A DNA stretch of 64,000 nucleotides. Origin: a bacterium. Its GTDB lineage: Bacteria; Desulfobacterota; Binatia; HRBIN30; CADEER01. How positions within the stretch are numbered: position 1 is the stretch's first letter; each line of letters opens with the position of its first letter. The position numbers were made by a program, and so were the translations under genes. This document shows positions 5,802 to 24,975 of this stretch, in pieces. Location of the stretch: contig JAHBUY010000008.1 in NCBI GenBank assembly GCA_019637795.1, positions 62,001 through 126,000 of the forward strand, given 5' to 3'. The notes beneath the pieces were generated by a model, which searched no databases, was not told the origin of the DNA, and saw nothing but the letters and a program-made list of their open reading frames with translations.

Positions 5802-7346
5802 ATGATGCGACGGGGCCTCGGCTTGGCCATGCTGGCGCTGGCGGCGGCAGGGTGCGGTGATGGCGATTCGCCGCGCCCGGTGCCGACGCCCACCGCGTCG
5901 GCCACCCGGACCGCGATCCCGACGGCGACGACCGCGGCGCCCACCGCCAGCGATACCCCGGTGCCCCTGTCGACCGCGTCGCCCCAGCCGTCGACGCCAC
6001 CCGCCTCGCCGACCGCGACCCCGCCCGCCTCGCCGACGGAGACGCCGCCCCCGACCCCGACCGCGACGCCGCTGGACACCGCGACGCCGACGCCGAGCGC
6101 GACTCCGGCGCCGCCGCAACTCCTGTTCTTCGGCGTCGCTCGCGCCGACGATCTGGTGCAGGCACCGGACGGCGTCGACGAGGCGGGACGGCCGATCTAC
6201 GCGCGCGCCCAGGGGCAGGGGATGACCCTGGTGGTCGAGGCGCGGCGCGGCCAGGTGCGCCTCTCCAACCAGGCCTATGACCCGGTGAACTTCGCGCCCG
6301 GGGTCGAGATCATCGCCTCGCGGCCGCTCGGCGATGGCAGCCCGGCGGTCTGCGATTACGATCCGCCGCTCATCGGCGGCATCCCGGCGGTCGAGCCGCT
6401 GGAGTTCCGCGACGATCCGATGGTGCGCGACGCGATCGCGGATCTCGGCTGCCGATTCAATGATGGCGCCGGCGCGCCGCTCGGCCGCGTCGGCAACAAC
6501 AACGCCTGCACGCGGGACGCGGGCGCGCTGTTCAACTTCGTCGATCCGCTCACCGAGCTGCAGTACTGTCTGCCGATCGCCAAGGCCTGGGCCTTCCCGG
6601 TGGGCGACACGATCGTCGCGGCGCGGGTGCGGGATGCCGGCGGTTCCCTCAGCGAGGTGCGCGAGATCGTCATCCGGGTCGCCGGCGACCAGCCCTTCGA
6701 TTGCAACACCGGCCTCGGCGAACGCGCCTTCACGGTGCGCACGCCGGCGAGCGAGCTCGACGCCGACGGATTCGGAAAGATCAGCACCGACGCCTGGCTG
6801 ACGGCTTCCCTGCGGCTCTGCGCCGGGCCCGACCTGGGCGACGGCACGCACGCGCTGACGCTGCGCGAGAACGCCATTCTCGGCATTCCGCTCACCGACG
6901 GCGGGGTGCTGTGCACCCAGCTCCGCTCGCGCGGCAGCGCCGGGGTGCTCGACTGCGGCAGCACGCTGCCGCAGGACGTGTACGCCACCGCGGATCAGGG
7001 AACGGGCCACATCTCCGTCGACACCGGCCTCGGCGTGCCCGCCGGCACCGGCTCGGCATCCCTGCGCCTGCCGATCGCGTTCCGCGTCCTGCCGAGCGGT
7101 GCTGCCCCGACCGACTGCCTGACCACCAGCTTCGGCAGCGTCATCGCCGGCGCTGTCACCACCGCGGGCGCCACCGCGGAGGTGCTCGACGCGGAGGGGG
7201 CCACGGTGGCCTCCCTGGCGCGCAACGGCGCGCCGTTCTCCTGCGACGAATGGGTCACGGGGGGAGCTCCGGTGCTGGTGCTGCCGCTGCCGATGACCGA
7301 TCCCGTGGCCGGCGCGGTCGCTACGGCTCTGGTGCTCGCGGACTGA
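5802..7346 (+). CDS. Secreted lipoprotein with long Pro/Thr-rich linker, function unknown
   Basis: A 514-residue exported protein. Residues 1-17 are a lipoprotein signal with lipobox LAAAGC (Cys18). Residues about 27-107 are almost entirely Pro, Thr, Ala and Ser in TPTA/PTAT-like units, a flexible cell-surface spacer. The rest (about 108-514) is a soluble domain rich in beta-type sequence with several cysteines (CDYDPP, GCRFND, YCLPIAKAW, CAGPD), probably disulfide-bonded outside the cytoplasm. No enzyme motif was recognised. The ATG-ATG start has GAGGAGGGG about 8 bp upstream. It is divergent from prfC across about 145 bp and is probably monocistronic. The MITE lies 93 bp downstream. Confidence 0.75.
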   Translation: MMRRGLGLAMLALAAAGCGDGDSPRPVPTPTASATRTAIPTATTAAPTASDTPVPLSTASPQPSTPPASPTATPPASPTETPPPTPTATPLDTATPTPSATPAPPQLLFFGVARADDLVQAPDGVDEAGRPIYARAQGQGMTLVVEARRGQVRLSNQAYDPVNFAPGVEIIASRPLGDGSPAVCDYDPPLIGGIPAVEPLEFRDDPMVRDAIADLGCRFNDGAGAPLGRVGNNNACTRDAGALFNFVDPLTELQYCLPIAKAWAFPVGDTIVAARVRDAGGSLSEVREIVIRVAGDQPFDCNTGLGERAFTVRTPASELDADGFGKISTDAWLTASLRLCAGPDLGDGTHALTLRENAILGIPLTDGGVLCTQLRSRGSAGVLDCGSTLPQDVYATADQGTGHISVDTGLGVPAGTGSASLRLPIAFRVLPSGAAPTDCLTTSFGSVIAGAVTTAGATAEVLDAEGATVASLARNGAPFSCDEWVTGGAPVLVLPLPMTDPVAGAVATALVLAD

Positions 7347-7439: not shown

Positions 7440-7605
7440 CTAGTGTCCCGCGTTGGAAGTTCGTTGCCTATTTCGGCAAGCAATCGGCGCCCCTGGCAAG
7501 GCGTCCCGACGCAGGAATATCGGGAATATTCCAAGGAGGGGCAACGCAGCCAGGGGCGTCGAGGGCCGGCGAAATAGGTGACGAACTTCCGACTCGGGAC
7601 ACTAG
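7440..7605. mobile_element. MITE-like palindromic element, copy 1
   Basis: A non-coding element of 164 bp between TAGTGTCCCG and CGGGACACTA, bounded on each side by CTAG (166 bp with the outer C and G). The outer 24 bp at each end are inverted repeats with two mismatches, and the complementarity continues inward with interruptions, so the whole element can fold into a long hairpin. The centre holds GGAATATCGGGAATATTCC. A second copy of identical length at 24810-24975 differs at only five positions. It encodes no protein. The CTAG at both ends is compatible with a 4-bp (CTAG) or 2-bp (TA) target duplication; the parental transposase is not in the window. Confidence 0.85.
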
Positions 7606-7625
7606 CCTCGAGACGACAAAACACC

Positions 7626-7776
7626 TTCACCACGGAGGCATGGAGACACGGAGGGTGCAGCGTGGGAATGGCGGGTGGGCGCGATCCCCAATGGCCATTG
7701 CTGATGGCGTTGGGGATCGCGCCCCCGAACCCTCTCTTGTCCAGGGTACTCCGTGTCTCCGTGCCTCCGTGGTGAA
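7626..7776. repeat. Nested inverted repeat of the CACGGAGGCACGGAGACACGG type
   Basis: Outer 28-bp arms at 7626-7653 and 7749-7776 (beginning TTCACCACGGAGGCA) are inverted copies with a single mismatch. A second perfect inverted pair of 15 bp lies inside, at 7677-7691 and 7710-7724 (GGGCGCGATCCCCAA). Read as protein, the arms give the TEARRHG/SPRRHGDTE strings seen as spurious ORFs in many bacterial genomes, so this is a known style of dispersed repeat. It starts 21 bp after MITE copy 1 and fills the gap to the Mla operon's last gene, whose transcript it could terminate. Confidence 0.75.
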
Positions 7777-7801
7777 ATCGTTTTCGTCACATCGAGCAAG
7801 G

Positions 7802-8404
7802 CTAGGGTGCCGCCGCCGGCGCCGATTGCATCGCCGCCGCGATCGCCTCACTGAGCTCGGCGATCAACTCGCTCAGCGCGGCGGCGTTCGCGTCGGGCGT
7901 GCCGCCGGGCCGCGTGTAGTCGAAGATCCGCGCCGCCACCGTCGCGTCGTGGCGGTCGCGCACCACCCACCGACCGGAGAGTTCCAGGCTGCCATCGGCC
8001 TGCTGCTCGAAGCGGGTCGCCGCCACGCTGACGCTGAAGTCCAGCTTCTCGGTGCTGTACCAGGGGAACGTCACGATCCGCTCCGGACCCATGAGCTGCA
8101 CCAGGTTCGCCCCCAGGGCGCGCTGGAAGTTGGTTCGCAGCGATTCCGCCCAGCGCGCCTCCGGATCGTAGACGATCTGGTTGGCGTCGACCCGGCGCGC
8201 CATCTCCGGCCGATCGAGATAGCTCGGCAGACTGAGCGGGCCGAGGCCGATCACGATCGGGGCGGTGGCGCCGGTGTGCGGCGCCACGGCGTTGAGGATG
8301 AAGAAGCGGGGCGCGATGGTGCGCGGCGCCATGATGAGGCCACAGCCGGCGAGCGCGAGCGCCAGCAGGGCGGCGAGGAGGGGAACGGCGGCGCGGCGAC
8401 TCAT
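7802..8404 (-). CDS. PqiC/ABC-transport auxiliary lipoprotein of a Mla/Pqi operon
   Basis: A 200-residue lipoprotein with signal and lipobox ending LALAG-C21. The mature part (RFFILNAVAP..., ...PIVIGLGPLSLPSYLDRPEMARR, YDPEARWAESLRTNFQRALGANL) is typical of the PqiC/DUF330 family: outer-membrane lipoproteins that accompany MCE-domain lipid transporters. It is the last gene of the minus-strand operon and its ATG overlaps the TGA of the MCE gene by 4 bp. It probably forms the outer-membrane end of the lipid conduit. The role is inferred from family and operon position. Confidence 0.85.
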   Translation of the reverse strand: MSRRAAVPLLAALLALALAGCGLIMAPRTIAPRFFILNAVAPHTGATAPIVIGLGPLSLPSYLDRPEMARRVDANQIVYDPEARWAESLRTNFQRALGANLVQLMGPERIVTFPWYSTEKLDFSVSVAATRFEQQADGSLELSGRWVVRDRHDATVAARIFDYTRPGGTPDANAAALSELIAELSEAIAAAMQSAPAAAP

Positions 8405-9366
8405 GGCGTGCTCTCCTGCTGTTGCGAGCGGCCGTAGAGCAGGGCGCTCGGGTTGCGCTCCAGGTAGTCGGCGAACAGCCGCAGCGCGTCGGCCGCCTGA
8501 CTGATGGCGTTGAGCGACTGGCGCAGGTCGTGGTCCAGTGGCGAGCCCGGCTGGATCAGCGTCGTCGCGGTGCTGGCGGTCTTCTCCACGGTGTCCATGG
8601 CGCGCTGGGCGCCGACCAGGGTCTGCGTCAGCTCGCTGCTGAGCGGCTCGACCTGGCGGTCGACGCGGCGCAGCAGCGCGTTGGCGCTGTCGATCGCGCC
8701 GTTGAGGTTCTTCACCGTGCCGGGGAGCTGATCGATGGCGCCGCGCAGCGACGGGTCGTTGATCAGTTGGCTCAGCCCGGCGAGGGCGCGGTTGGCCTCG
8801 TCCACCATGCCCTTGAAGTCGATCGTGCGCAGCTCGTTGATGATCTCGCGCGCCTGCGTCGAGGCCTGTTCGAGCGTCGTCGGGATGGTCGGAATCTCCG
8901 GCGGGTCGGATGGTTGCTTCTCGACCCACCTCGCCTCGGTGTCGGGGAAGAAGTCGAGCTGGATGAAGAGCAGGCCGGTGAGCAGGCTCTGCGACTGCAA
9001 CTGGGCGCGCAGGCCGCGGTTGATCAGCTCTTCGCGTGCCTCGGGATCGGGGAAGTGGATGTTGCGGCCCTCGGTGACGATCTTGCTCGGGTCGAGCACC
9101 ACGTAGACCGGGATGCGCGCCTCCGGGCCGCGCTCCCCGGCCCGGAGGACGAGCTGGATGTTGGTCACCGAGCCGATGTCGACGCCCTTGAACTTCACCG
9201 GCGCGCCGACGCTGAGCCCGTCGACCGAGCCGGGGAAGTACATCACGGCGTCGATCGTGCGGCGGAAGAGCTTGCCGGAGCCGAACACCAGGACGCCGGC
9301 GACGGCGAGGATCAGGGCGCCGAGCACGAACAGGCCGACGATGGCCGGGTTGGCTTTCTTACCCAT
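8401..9366 (-). CDS. mlaD: MCE-domain substrate-binding protein (MlaD family)
   Basis: A 321-residue inner-membrane-anchored periplasmic protein. One N-terminal TM helix (about 9-30) is followed by a single MCE domain (about 38-115) with the typical YFPGSVDGLSVGAPVKFKGVDIGSV. A long helical C-terminal region (about 150-310) has residues such as LINDPSLRGAIDQL and HDLRQSLNAIS. This is longer than E. coli MlaD (183) and fits the needle-like YebT/PqiB or actinobacterial Mce arrangement with a helical barrel. It binds phospholipid or another hydrophobic ligand between MlaE/F and the outer-membrane lipoprotein. It overlaps mlaF by 8 bp and the PqiC gene by 4 bp. Confidence 0.9.
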   Translation of the reverse strand: MGKKANPAIVGLFVLGALILAVAGVLVFGSGKLFRRTIDAVMYFPGSVDGLSVGAPVKFKGVDIGSVTNIQLVLRAGERGPEARIPVYVVLDPSKIVTEGRNIHFPDPEAREELINRGLRAQLQSQSLLTGLLFIQLDFFPDTEARWVEKQPSDPPEIPTIPTTLEQASTQAREIINELRTIDFKGMVDEANRALAGLSQLINDPSLRGAIDQLPGTVKNLNGAIDSANALLRRVDRQVEPLSSELTQTLVGAQRAMDTVEKTASTATTLIQPGSPLDHDLRQSLNAISQAADALRLFADYLERNPSALLYGRSQQQESTP

Positions 9367-22442: not shown

Positions 22443-24764
22443 ATGAATCGTTCGCAGGGGTGGCAGAGGGTGCTGCCGACGCGGCACCTGTTTCCCGTGA
22501 TCGCCGGCGCGCTGGCGGTGCTGATCGCGGCGGCCGACGCGGCCAGCGCCGACGTCGACGAGAAGACCTTGCGCCTGACGCCGGCGCGCCTGGGTTATGT
22601 CGAAGGCGACGTCTCCTTCTGGCGTCCGGGCGCCGGCGACTGGGAGGCGGCGACCGTCAACATTCCGCTCGCCGCCGGCGACGCGCTGGCGACCCGCGAC
22701 GGGCGCTTCGAGGTGCAGATCGGCCCGCAGGCGTTTCTGCGCGCCGCCGACCAGACGCAGCTCAGGGTGAAGAGCCAGGAGCCGGACTTTCTGCAACTCG
22801 AGGTCGCCCAGGGCAGCGCGGTGCTCGACCTGCGCCAGTTGCCGGCGGGGCACATCGTCGAGATCGACACGCCGCAGGGCGCGACGACGGTCAATCGCGA
22901 CGGCTTCTACCGGGTCGACGTCGACGCCCAGTCGACCCGCATCACCGTGCGGCGCGCCGGCGCCGCGTCGTTCACGCCGCTCGGCGGCCAGCCGGTGCAG
23001 GTGGCGACCGGCGAGTCGATCACCCTGCGCGGCGGCGCGGCCGGCCAACTCGACCTGGCGGCCGCGCCGGCGTTCGACGAGTGGGATCGCTGGAACTACG
23101 CCCGCGCCGACGCCGGGCTGGCGGCGCCGCGCAGCTACGCGGTCTCGACCGACGTCTACGGCGTGTCCGACCTCGATCGCTACGGCGGCTGGCGCTACGT
23201 CCCCACCTACGGGCGCGTCTGGGTGCCGTACTCGGTGCCGGTCGGGTGGGCGCCCTACAGCTACGGGCGGTGGTTGTGGGATCCGGTCTACGGCTACTCG
23301 TGGGTCGACTACGCCCCGTGGGGCTGGGCTCCCTTCCACTACGGCCGGTGGGTCTACACCGGCTACTGGGCATGGGCCCCGGGACCGGTGGTCTACGGCG
23401 CCGTCTACGCGCCGGCCCTGGTCAGCTTCTTCACCCCGGCGGTGTCGGTGAGCGTCGGCGTCGGCGTGCCCTTCATCGGCTGGACGGCCCTGGGCTGGGG
23501 CGAGCCGCTGGTGCCCTGGTGGGGCGGCGTCGGCTTCGTCGGCGTGCCCTGCTGGTACGGCTGGGGCGGACCGCGGGTGGTGAACAACATCGTCATCAAC
23601 AACTACGACACGGTGCACGCCAACCAGATCAACGTGTACCGCAACGCCAGCGCGCCCGGCGGCCTGGTCGGCGTGCCGAAGAACGCCTTCGGCGGTCCCG
23701 ACGTGCAGCGGGCGCGCCTGGCGTCGCTCACCAACAACGACGTGAAGCCGCTGCGCGGCGTCACCCGGACTTCGCTCGGCGCGCCAGCCGGGGGGGCGGC
23801 GATGCCGAAGGACGGCATTCCGCATCTCGCGGGGAGCGCCGGCACGCCGCGGGGCGCCGGCGGCGGCGCCACCCAGCTCACCCGCCAGGCCAACGTCGGC
23901 GGGGCTACCGCCGACGCCGTGCCGCCGAAGCCGGCCGGGCAGGGCGCGGCCTTCGACCGCCTGCGCGGGGGCACGGTCGAGGCGGCGCGCGGATCCATTC
24001 CGAAGGCGGCGCTGCCCGCGGTCGGAGCGCGCGCGCCGGGCTCGGACACGGCCGCCGCGCCGGACAAGGGACGGACGGCGCCGTTCGACCGATTGCGGAC
24101 GAGCGGCACGGTGGTCTCACCGCCGCCCCTCCCGCAAGCGGCGCCGCCATCGGCGGGCAGCCGCGCCCCGGGCGGGCGCGTCGCGGCGCCGCCCAGGGAT
24201 CAGAGCGCTTCCTTCGACCGCGCGGGCAGCGGAACCGTGTCCCGCTCGCAGGCGCTGCCGAAGCGGTCGCTGCCGGCGGTGCCTGCTGCCGGCTCGAGCG
24301 TCGGCAGCGTCGCGCCGCCGCCGTTGCGCGGTCTGAGCCGGCCACAGGGAGGCAGCGCCGAGGCCTATCGCCGCCTCGGCAACGGCAGCCTGGCGGCGCC
24401 GCGCGCCGCCGTCGCCCCGAGCTATCCGCGCGGCATCGCGGGCGCGCCGGTCGTGAAGTCCGGTGTGCCAGCGGCGGTGGAGCCGTCGCGACCGGTGGCG
24501 CCCAGCGCGGGCAACGTCGGCCGCGCCGACTCGGCGGCGCCGCTGTTGCCGAGGCCGCGCGCCGTGGCGCGCGTCGACGCCGCCCCGATGGCCAACTTCG
24601 CGCCGCAGCCGAAGCCGCTGGCGCTGCCGAGTGTCGGCGGCGGCACGGGCGGCGGGAATCTCGGCGCCATGGGCGGCGGGCCGGCGGCCGGGGGCGGCAG
24701 CGGCGGCGCTGGTGGCAGCGGGATGGGCGGCAGCGGCGGCGGGCGTCCCAGTTTCTCGCGCTGA
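22443..24764 (+). CDS. Secreted FecR-domain/DUF6600 protein with repetitive low-complexity tail
   Basis: About 773 residues. The signal peptide is about 1-36 (VIAGALAVLIAAADAASAD). A FecR-like beta domain (about 50-190; VEGDVSFWRPG..., LDLRQLPAGHIVEIDTPQGATTVNRDGFYRV) precedes a Tyr/Trp/Gly-rich DUF6600 segment (about 240-370; GRVWVPYSVPVGWAPYSYGRW, PWGWAPFHYGRW). The tail (about 385-773) carries imperfect units centred on FDRLR-x-GTV at about 504, 548 and 591 and YRRLGNGS at about 642, then a Gly/Ser-rich end. Similar FecR-DUF6600 proteins occur at delta-proteobacterial and planctomycete surfaces; function is unknown. The start has no strong ribosome site. A strong hairpin follows the stop at once. 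Confidence 0.8.
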   Translation: MNRSQGWQRVLPTRHLFPVIAGALAVLIAAADAASADVDEKTLRLTPARLGYVEGDVSFWRPGAGDWEAATVNIPLAAGDALATRDGRFEVQIGPQAFLRAADQTQLRVKSQEPDFLQLEVAQGSAVLDLRQLPAGHIVEIDTPQGATTVNRDGFYRVDVDAQSTRITVRRAGAASFTPLGGQPVQVATGESITLRGGAAGQLDLAAAPAFDEWDRWNYARADAGLAAPRSYAVSTDVYGVSDLDRYGGWRYVPTYGRVWVPYSVPVGWAPYSYGRWLWDPVYGYSWVDYAPWGWAPFHYGRWVYTGYWAWAPGPVVYGAVYAPALVSFFTPAVSVSVGVGVPFIGWTALGWGEPLVPWWGGVGFVGVPCWYGWGGPRVVNNIVINNYDTVHANQINVYRNASAPGGLVGVPKNAFGGPDVQRARLASLTNNDVKPLRGVTRTSLGAPAGGAAMPKDGIPHLAGSAGTPRGAGGGATQLTRQANVGGATADAVPPKPAGQGAAFDRLRGGTVEAARGSIPKAALPAVGARAPGSDTAAAPDKGRTAPFDRLRTSGTVVSPPPLPQAAPPSAGSRAPGGRVAAPPRDQSASFDRAGSGTVSRSQALPKRSLPAVPAAGSSVGSVAPPPLRGLSRPQGGSAEAYRRLGNGSLAAPRAAVAPSYPRGIAGAPVVKSGVPAAVEPSRPVAPSAGNVGRADSAAPLLPRPRAVARVDAAPMANFAPQPKPLALPSVGGGTGGGNLGAMGGGPAAGGGSGGAGGSGMGGSGGGRPSFSR

Positions 24765-24765
24765 C

Positions 24766-24803
24766 GGACGAGGGGGCGGGTCGTCCGACCCGCCCCCTCG
24801 TCC
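24766..24803 (+). terminator. Strong 18-bp hairpin terminator
   Basis: Perfect 18-bp arms 24766-24783 and 24786-24803 (GGACGAGGGGGCGGGTCG and its complement) begin 2 bp after the DUF6600 stop. There is no U-tract, as is common in GC-rich genomes. MITE copy 2 begins 7 bp beyond. Confidence 0.7.
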
Positions 24804-24809
24804 CGTACG

Positions 24810-24975
24810 CTAGTGTCCCGAGTTGGAAGTTCGTTGCCTATTTCGGCAAGCAATCGGCGCCCCTGGCAAGGCGTCCCGACGCCGGAATATCGGGAATATT
24901 CCGAGGAGGGGCAACGCAGCCAGGGGCATCGAGGGCCGGCGAAATAGGTGACGAACTTCCGACTGGGGACACTAG
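24810..24975. mobile_element. MITE-like palindromic element, copy 2
   Basis: Same length and structure as the copy at 7440-7605, with five substitutions. It is again bounded by CTAG and carries 24-bp terminal inverted repeats with two mismatches. Both copies lie in the same relative orientation. It sits between a terminator hairpin and the GNAT gene and interrupts no recognisable ORF. Confidence 0.85.

Follow-up and report, generated by a model that had tools for sequence, protein, structure and literature searches.

What are the two near-identical 166-bp repeats in this window (the whole 64,000-nucleotide stretch of DNA analyzed), what moves them, and is anything inside them under selection? 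MITEs are usually regarded as decayed transposons with unimportant interiors. Here, the interior is conserved across phyla, the ends are exchanged and pairing is kept on one strand only. We consider it likely that the repeats are MITEs mobilized in trans by IS630 transposases, with an exchangeable core that is selected as a single strand, most probably as RNA.

Anatomy and surroundings of the two copies

The first-pass annotation placed copy 1 (7440–7605) and copy 2 (24810–24975) correctly, with five differences between them. The core strand is the plus strand in both. Each has terminal inverted repeats and no transposase gene within its 166 bp, and CTAG flanks both ends of both copies, as had been described. 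The first 24 bp of copy 1 (CTAGTGTCCCGCGTTGGAAGTTCG; 7440–7463, plus strand) match the reverse complement of its last 24 bp (7582–7605, minus strand) at 22 of 24 positions, which bears out the 24-bp terminal inverted repeats that had been reported; those of copy 2 lie at 24810–24833 (plus strand) and 24952–24975 (minus strand). The near-full palindromic folding was likewise confirmed, each copy forming approximately one hairpin nearly throughout. When folded as RNA, copy 1 gave −117.8 kcal/mol compared with −57.6 ± 4.1 kcal/mol for dinucleotide shuffles (z = −14.6). A conserved 62-nt core occupies 7492–7553 in copy 1 (plus strand; covariance model R1, E = 8.2e-17) and 24862–24923 in copy 2 (plus strand; R1, E = 7.8e-17). 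Long ORFs reading across both copies were regarded as mechanical.

Copy 1 is flanked by two ORFs, one on the plus strand that ends at 7346 and one on the minus strand (7802–8929) that is lipoprotein-like. It is the copy that had been annotated beside a different repeat: its right-hand CTAG (7602–7605) is common to a second palindromic repeat, CTAGCCTCGA..CACCACGGAGG..CCTCCGTGGTG..GGCTAG, at 7602–7805 (no strand assigned). The outer CTAG of this palindrome (7802–7805) contains the TAG stop codon of the lipoprotein-like ORF. Copy 2 is the one said to follow a terminator directly, and a terminator-like hairpin (24770–24799, plus strand) indeed lies between it and a plus-strand ORF ending at 24764. 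On its other side is an acetyltransferase-like reading frame, the start of which was read as 25076.

Copy number, insertion sites and IS630 partners

BLAST of the window's own genome returned five full copies with the ends of the window copies (type A; 96–100%) and one partial match, which is a hybrid. About seven relatives have the same middle and core between other ends (type B, CTAGTGCACCGTCGTTGAGATAGG). Two hybrids of the same genome, L006 and L037, combine a B-type left end with an A-type right end, showing that ends have been exchanged there. Lone type B left ends were seen at L031 and L034, just upstream of frames that by eye resemble Phd/YefM-type antitoxins. The second palindromic repeat (CTAGCCTCGA..CACCACGGAGGCACGGAGACACGGAG) directly adjoins type A copies with a common CTAG; related sequence occurs at the right flank of L002, and at L027 the repeat is joined to a type B end.

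Matches were found in 18 of 98 genomes of relatives (own genome counted), the nearly full-length ones measuring 160–168 bp. Scanning GTDB genome contigs for CTAGTGTCCYG-N136..152-CRGGACACTAG gave at least 119 stretches; this pattern itself fixed the length range, so that length conservation rests instead on the search of the 98 relatives. By record title, the stretches listed belong to Actinomycetota, Acidobacteriota, Proteobacteria, Desulfuromonadales, Planctomycetota, Verrucomicrobiota, Gemmatimonadota, Eisenbacteria, Binatia and others. The 11-base type A end occurred 3 to 96 times per strand in twelve genomes, compared with 0 to 4 times for the reversed pattern. With the queries used, the full element was not found in plasmids, phages or viral contigs, and one Pseudomonas type A element had zero matches in 5,426 E. 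coli genomes. A shorter MITE with type A ends, an 81-bp element that lacks the core, was seen in Actinophytocola (L188, G107:C12:182192-182272).

Full copies have CTAG at their ends, and neighboring elements have one CTAG in common. Tandem elements or ends with a single common CTAG (L130, L170, L176 and L189) are what insertion of a new copy into the CTAG of one already present would give. A preference of IS630 for TA within CTAG is already known (titles cited in PMC2170065). Called stop codons coincided with 41 of the 121 elements in the contigs sampled, compared with 34 of the 346 other CTAG sites of those loci, and two of the 121 elements lay inside genes, compared with 157 of the 346 other sites; these counts are approximate, because genes were called by a heuristic based on GC by codon position and an in-frame element that truncates a gene also scores as a stop. 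For three Massilia sites, other species have the neighboring sequence without the element, although divergence at the junctions hides the exact empty site. For a Janthinobacterium IS630, no plasmid lacking it was found.

A full-length IS with the same termini and a transposase was expected by the first-pass annotation if the repeats were MITEs. Such elements are present in other genomes and were not found in the window's own. In Crossiella (L186:890-2022), type A ends 1133 bp apart surround an IS630-family transposase interrupted by a frameshift (NCBIfam E = 8.5e-47; Pfam DDE_3). Plasmids of Acidovorax carolinensis carry a 1169-bp element with type A ends (L309:1381-2549) and an annotated IS630 family transposase; the right 49 bp of the element match an Acidovorax MITE at 82%. 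Type B ends surround intact IS630 transposase genes in two genomes of the window's class, G021 and G059. In the elements from Crossiella, Acidovorax and G021, the terminal CTAG supplies the TAG stop codon of the transposase gene. Given these partners with matching ends, the element was filed as an IS630-derived MITE. It carries a hairpin that is conserved, probably at the RNA level. The MITE reading of the annotation is thus upheld by many copies with CTAG junctions and by full IS630 elements sharing the termini. Its alternative, a duplication limited to two copies with no IS sharing the ends, is disfavored by the five full copies and the matching IS630 ends.

The annotation had also noted that no transposase was in sight. 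In the window's own genome none with these ends was found: its IS630 elements carry ends other than A or B, and no pairs of the 12-bp CTAGTGTCCCGA ends occur at IS distance. A MITE does not need such a partner in its own genome, but the copies there may be relics. Seven near-identical IS630 copies of about 1.1 kb (L191–L197; G000 contigs C2, C4, C5 and C7) were considered as a source and set aside as a different type, with ATTGAGTCTCG ends and an interrupted frame. All seven are interrupted by a TAA at one shared position and are either dead copies or use programmed readthrough or frameshifting. In the planctomycete Pla86, a 1212-bp IS630 has a third kind of end, and six of its seven copies abut a type A MITE with one common CTAG (L222, L233, L239, L243, L246 and L248); MITE ends may be preferred targets. 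The 1.8 kb between two Desulfuromonas copies was considered as a transposon and proved to be an ordinary gene region. No convincing gene was found to recur beside copies.

As a mechanism, it is proposed that the repeats are non-autonomous MITEs moved in trans, by cut and paste, by IS630-family (Tc1/mariner-like) transposases. These would recognize the ends (TA)GTGTCCYG..CRGGACAC(TA) and insert the repeats at the TA within CTAG, and the repeats may still be mobile. TAG stop codons preceded by C would be tolerated sites, since insertion leaves the TAG in place.

A conserved core between different ends

Forty-two type A elements from many lineages were aligned for conservation. Strong conservation was limited to the outermost bases and a middle of about 62 nt, the core GGCAAGGCGCGACGACGAGG..CGAGGAGGAGCAACGCAGCC. 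The arms vary yet are complementary, with two-sided changes in 42 of 54 pairs, a pattern that palindrome maintenance at the DNA level could also yield. In the non-Watson–Crick part of the core, G.A was the commonest mismatch (134 of 227), and 29 tandem GA/AG steps were counted, a number that depends on the alignment; this pattern is suggestive only.

The covariance model R1 was built from the core and used for genome searches. It detected 13 core copies in the window's own genome, 36 in G045, 58 in G070, 56 in Pla86 and 75 in Aquisalimonas. R1 also matched 60 places in a sample of 84 contig loci, 18 of which had supplied training sequences; the titles of these loci cover at least eight phyla. 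Within the window's phylum, the core was present in 15 of 198 evenly drawn genomes, and a few weaker hits look spurious. A search of Rfam gave no match above family thresholds and nothing meaningful at a low threshold.

Several kinds of transposon end enclose the core, an exchangeable module. In G045 it lies inside type A, type B and AGAGTYTGTGAATCAATCCCC ends, the last without CTAG. In Massilia it is found inside AGAGCCTATCCCGGTAGGTGGG ends and also in roughly 100-bp elements with GAGGTCGTTTCAAAATGAGCA at their ends, and in Longimicrobiales inside CTAGTGTAGTGTCGCC ends. The phylum sample added further end types around the core, and AGAGTYTGTGAATC, AGAGCCTATCCCGG and GAGGTCGTTTCAAAATGAGC are among the other end types. 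A Crossiella core with GAGTGGTCGG ends is a weak match (E = 0.0017). Boundaries of the elements without CTAG are our own reading of the palindromes. Conservation of the core across phyla, its presence within other terminal repeats and its single-strand-specific pairing go beyond what the first-pass annotation had described.

Strand asymmetry and competing explanations

The arms were compared by strand-symmetric alignment, with the core used solely for orientation. On the core strand of 38 elements, arm mismatches comprised 149 G.T compared with 19 A.C, 91 G.A compared with 12 C.T, and 44 G.G compared with 3 C.C. The arms fold better as RNA on the core strand in 38 of 38 elements, and the whole elements in 42 of 42, by 17 kcal/mol on average; P values for this asymmetry are overstated, because the elements are related by descent and not independent. 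In 29 further elements outside that alignment, G.T mismatches outnumbered A.C by 91 to 29 and the core strand was the better one in 28. By end type, the asymmetry was seen in 9 of 9 type B elements and in 11 of 13 with other ends. It is also present in type A-ended elements without a detectable core, and so is not strictly tied to the core.

Copies occur in both orientations relative to genes, any bias being weak at most, which makes transcription or replication bias a poor explanation of the asymmetry. Nor would mRNA read-through alone predict so little orientation bias. Strand-specific mismatches would be expected of an element that functions as one strand, whether RNA or single-stranded DNA. 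RNA is favored, since G.U is a true pair in RNA; nevertheless, folding of single-stranded DNA would likewise favor G.T over A.C. The two arms and the 62-nt core are predicted to form one long hairpin, and the core would be under single-strand selection, most likely in the form of RNA produced by read-through or by its own transcription. Our guess is that the core strand acts at mRNA 3′ ends as a structure, either a barrier or an RNase III substrate, that renders insertions harmless or useful; such a role in read-through transcripts is suggested by analogy with Correia and ERIC (PMC10969869).

An ordinary IS630 MITE family maintained by transposition only would have the same MITE anatomy and IS630 partners, with the core conserved by recent horizontal spread and the asymmetry arising from mutational or repair bias at extruded hairpins. 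Occurrence is patchy, in 15 of the 198 genomes sampled from the phylum, and this fits horizontal spread. However, the arms are almost wholly different between lineages and still paired, which argues that the spread is not recent. A mutational or repair origin also has to face an asymmetry that spans G.T, G.A and G.G alike in 38 of 38 elements, and the core is found with other ends; we regard this explanation as unlikely. Strand-specific pairing, extragenic location and high copy number would also suit a single-stranded DNA hairpin of the REP/RAYT or IS200/IS605 kind, in which a Y1 (HUH) transposase acts on the one strand that folds and the IS630-like ends are secondary. Since the A and B ends match IS630 elements whose stop codon falls in the terminal CTAG, and no gene cluster recurs beside the copies, the chances of this are slim.

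The least credible reading, to which we give almost no weight, is the duplication, within the window's own genome, of a regulatory or terminator structure that belongs to the host and does not derive from a transposon. It would account for the intergenic position, the strong hairpin and the location of one copy just after a terminator, but not for the sharp CTAG bounds at unrelated sites, the presence across phyla or the IS630 elements with the same ends. Mobilization in trans by IS630 transposases with an exchangeable, single-strand-selected core is preferred to all of these. A bolder form of this reading takes the core as a mobile structured RNA, one hairpin repeatedly repackaged between unrelated transposon ends in at least eight phyla under one-strand RNA selection; it is put forward tentatively, with somewhat less than even confidence. 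Were this so, borrowed transposon ends would be the means by which a widespread structured RNA travels. Whether selection keeps the RNA or the single-stranded DNA form of ERIC, Correia and REP, and hence why small palindromic repeats persist, would then become testable.

A description of the element was not found in the open-access literature, and searching the literature for the sequences of the ends and the core gave unrelated hits only; an earlier description is possible in the subscription literature on MITEs. Several known repeats resemble it. RUP of Streptococcus pneumoniae (IS630-Spn1) is likewise a small non-autonomous palindrome with IS630-family ends, located at TA; it is 107 bp long, is confined to one species and has no reported core common to other end types (PMC2229807), whereas the element here is about 166 bp, spans many phyla and lies at CTAG. 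Correia/NEMIS repeats, compared here by description alone, are MITEs with TA ends whose hairpin RNA is cut by RNase III; they were reported from Neisseria and have promoters and an IHF site (PMC10969869). The IS630 family (Tc1/mariner) shares the ends and the TA within CTAG, while the repeats here encode no transposase. REP/REPIN/BIME sequences with RAYT are also high-copy extragenic hairpins, but their units are shorter (20–40 bp), tagged by GTAG or CGTC (PMC3733652) and associated with a Y1 transposase, compared with IS630 ends and about 165 bp here. ERIC (RU-1, 127 bp) and YPAL (RU-2, about 168 bp) are intergenic imperfect palindromes like the present element, ERIC being located at TA; both belong to enterobacteria, unlike the many-phyla element. 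YPAL lacks TA at its ends and has duplications of 3–26 bp (PMC2229807). It was considered for its length of 168 bp, and the printed RU-2 sequence, judged by eye alone, looks unrelated.
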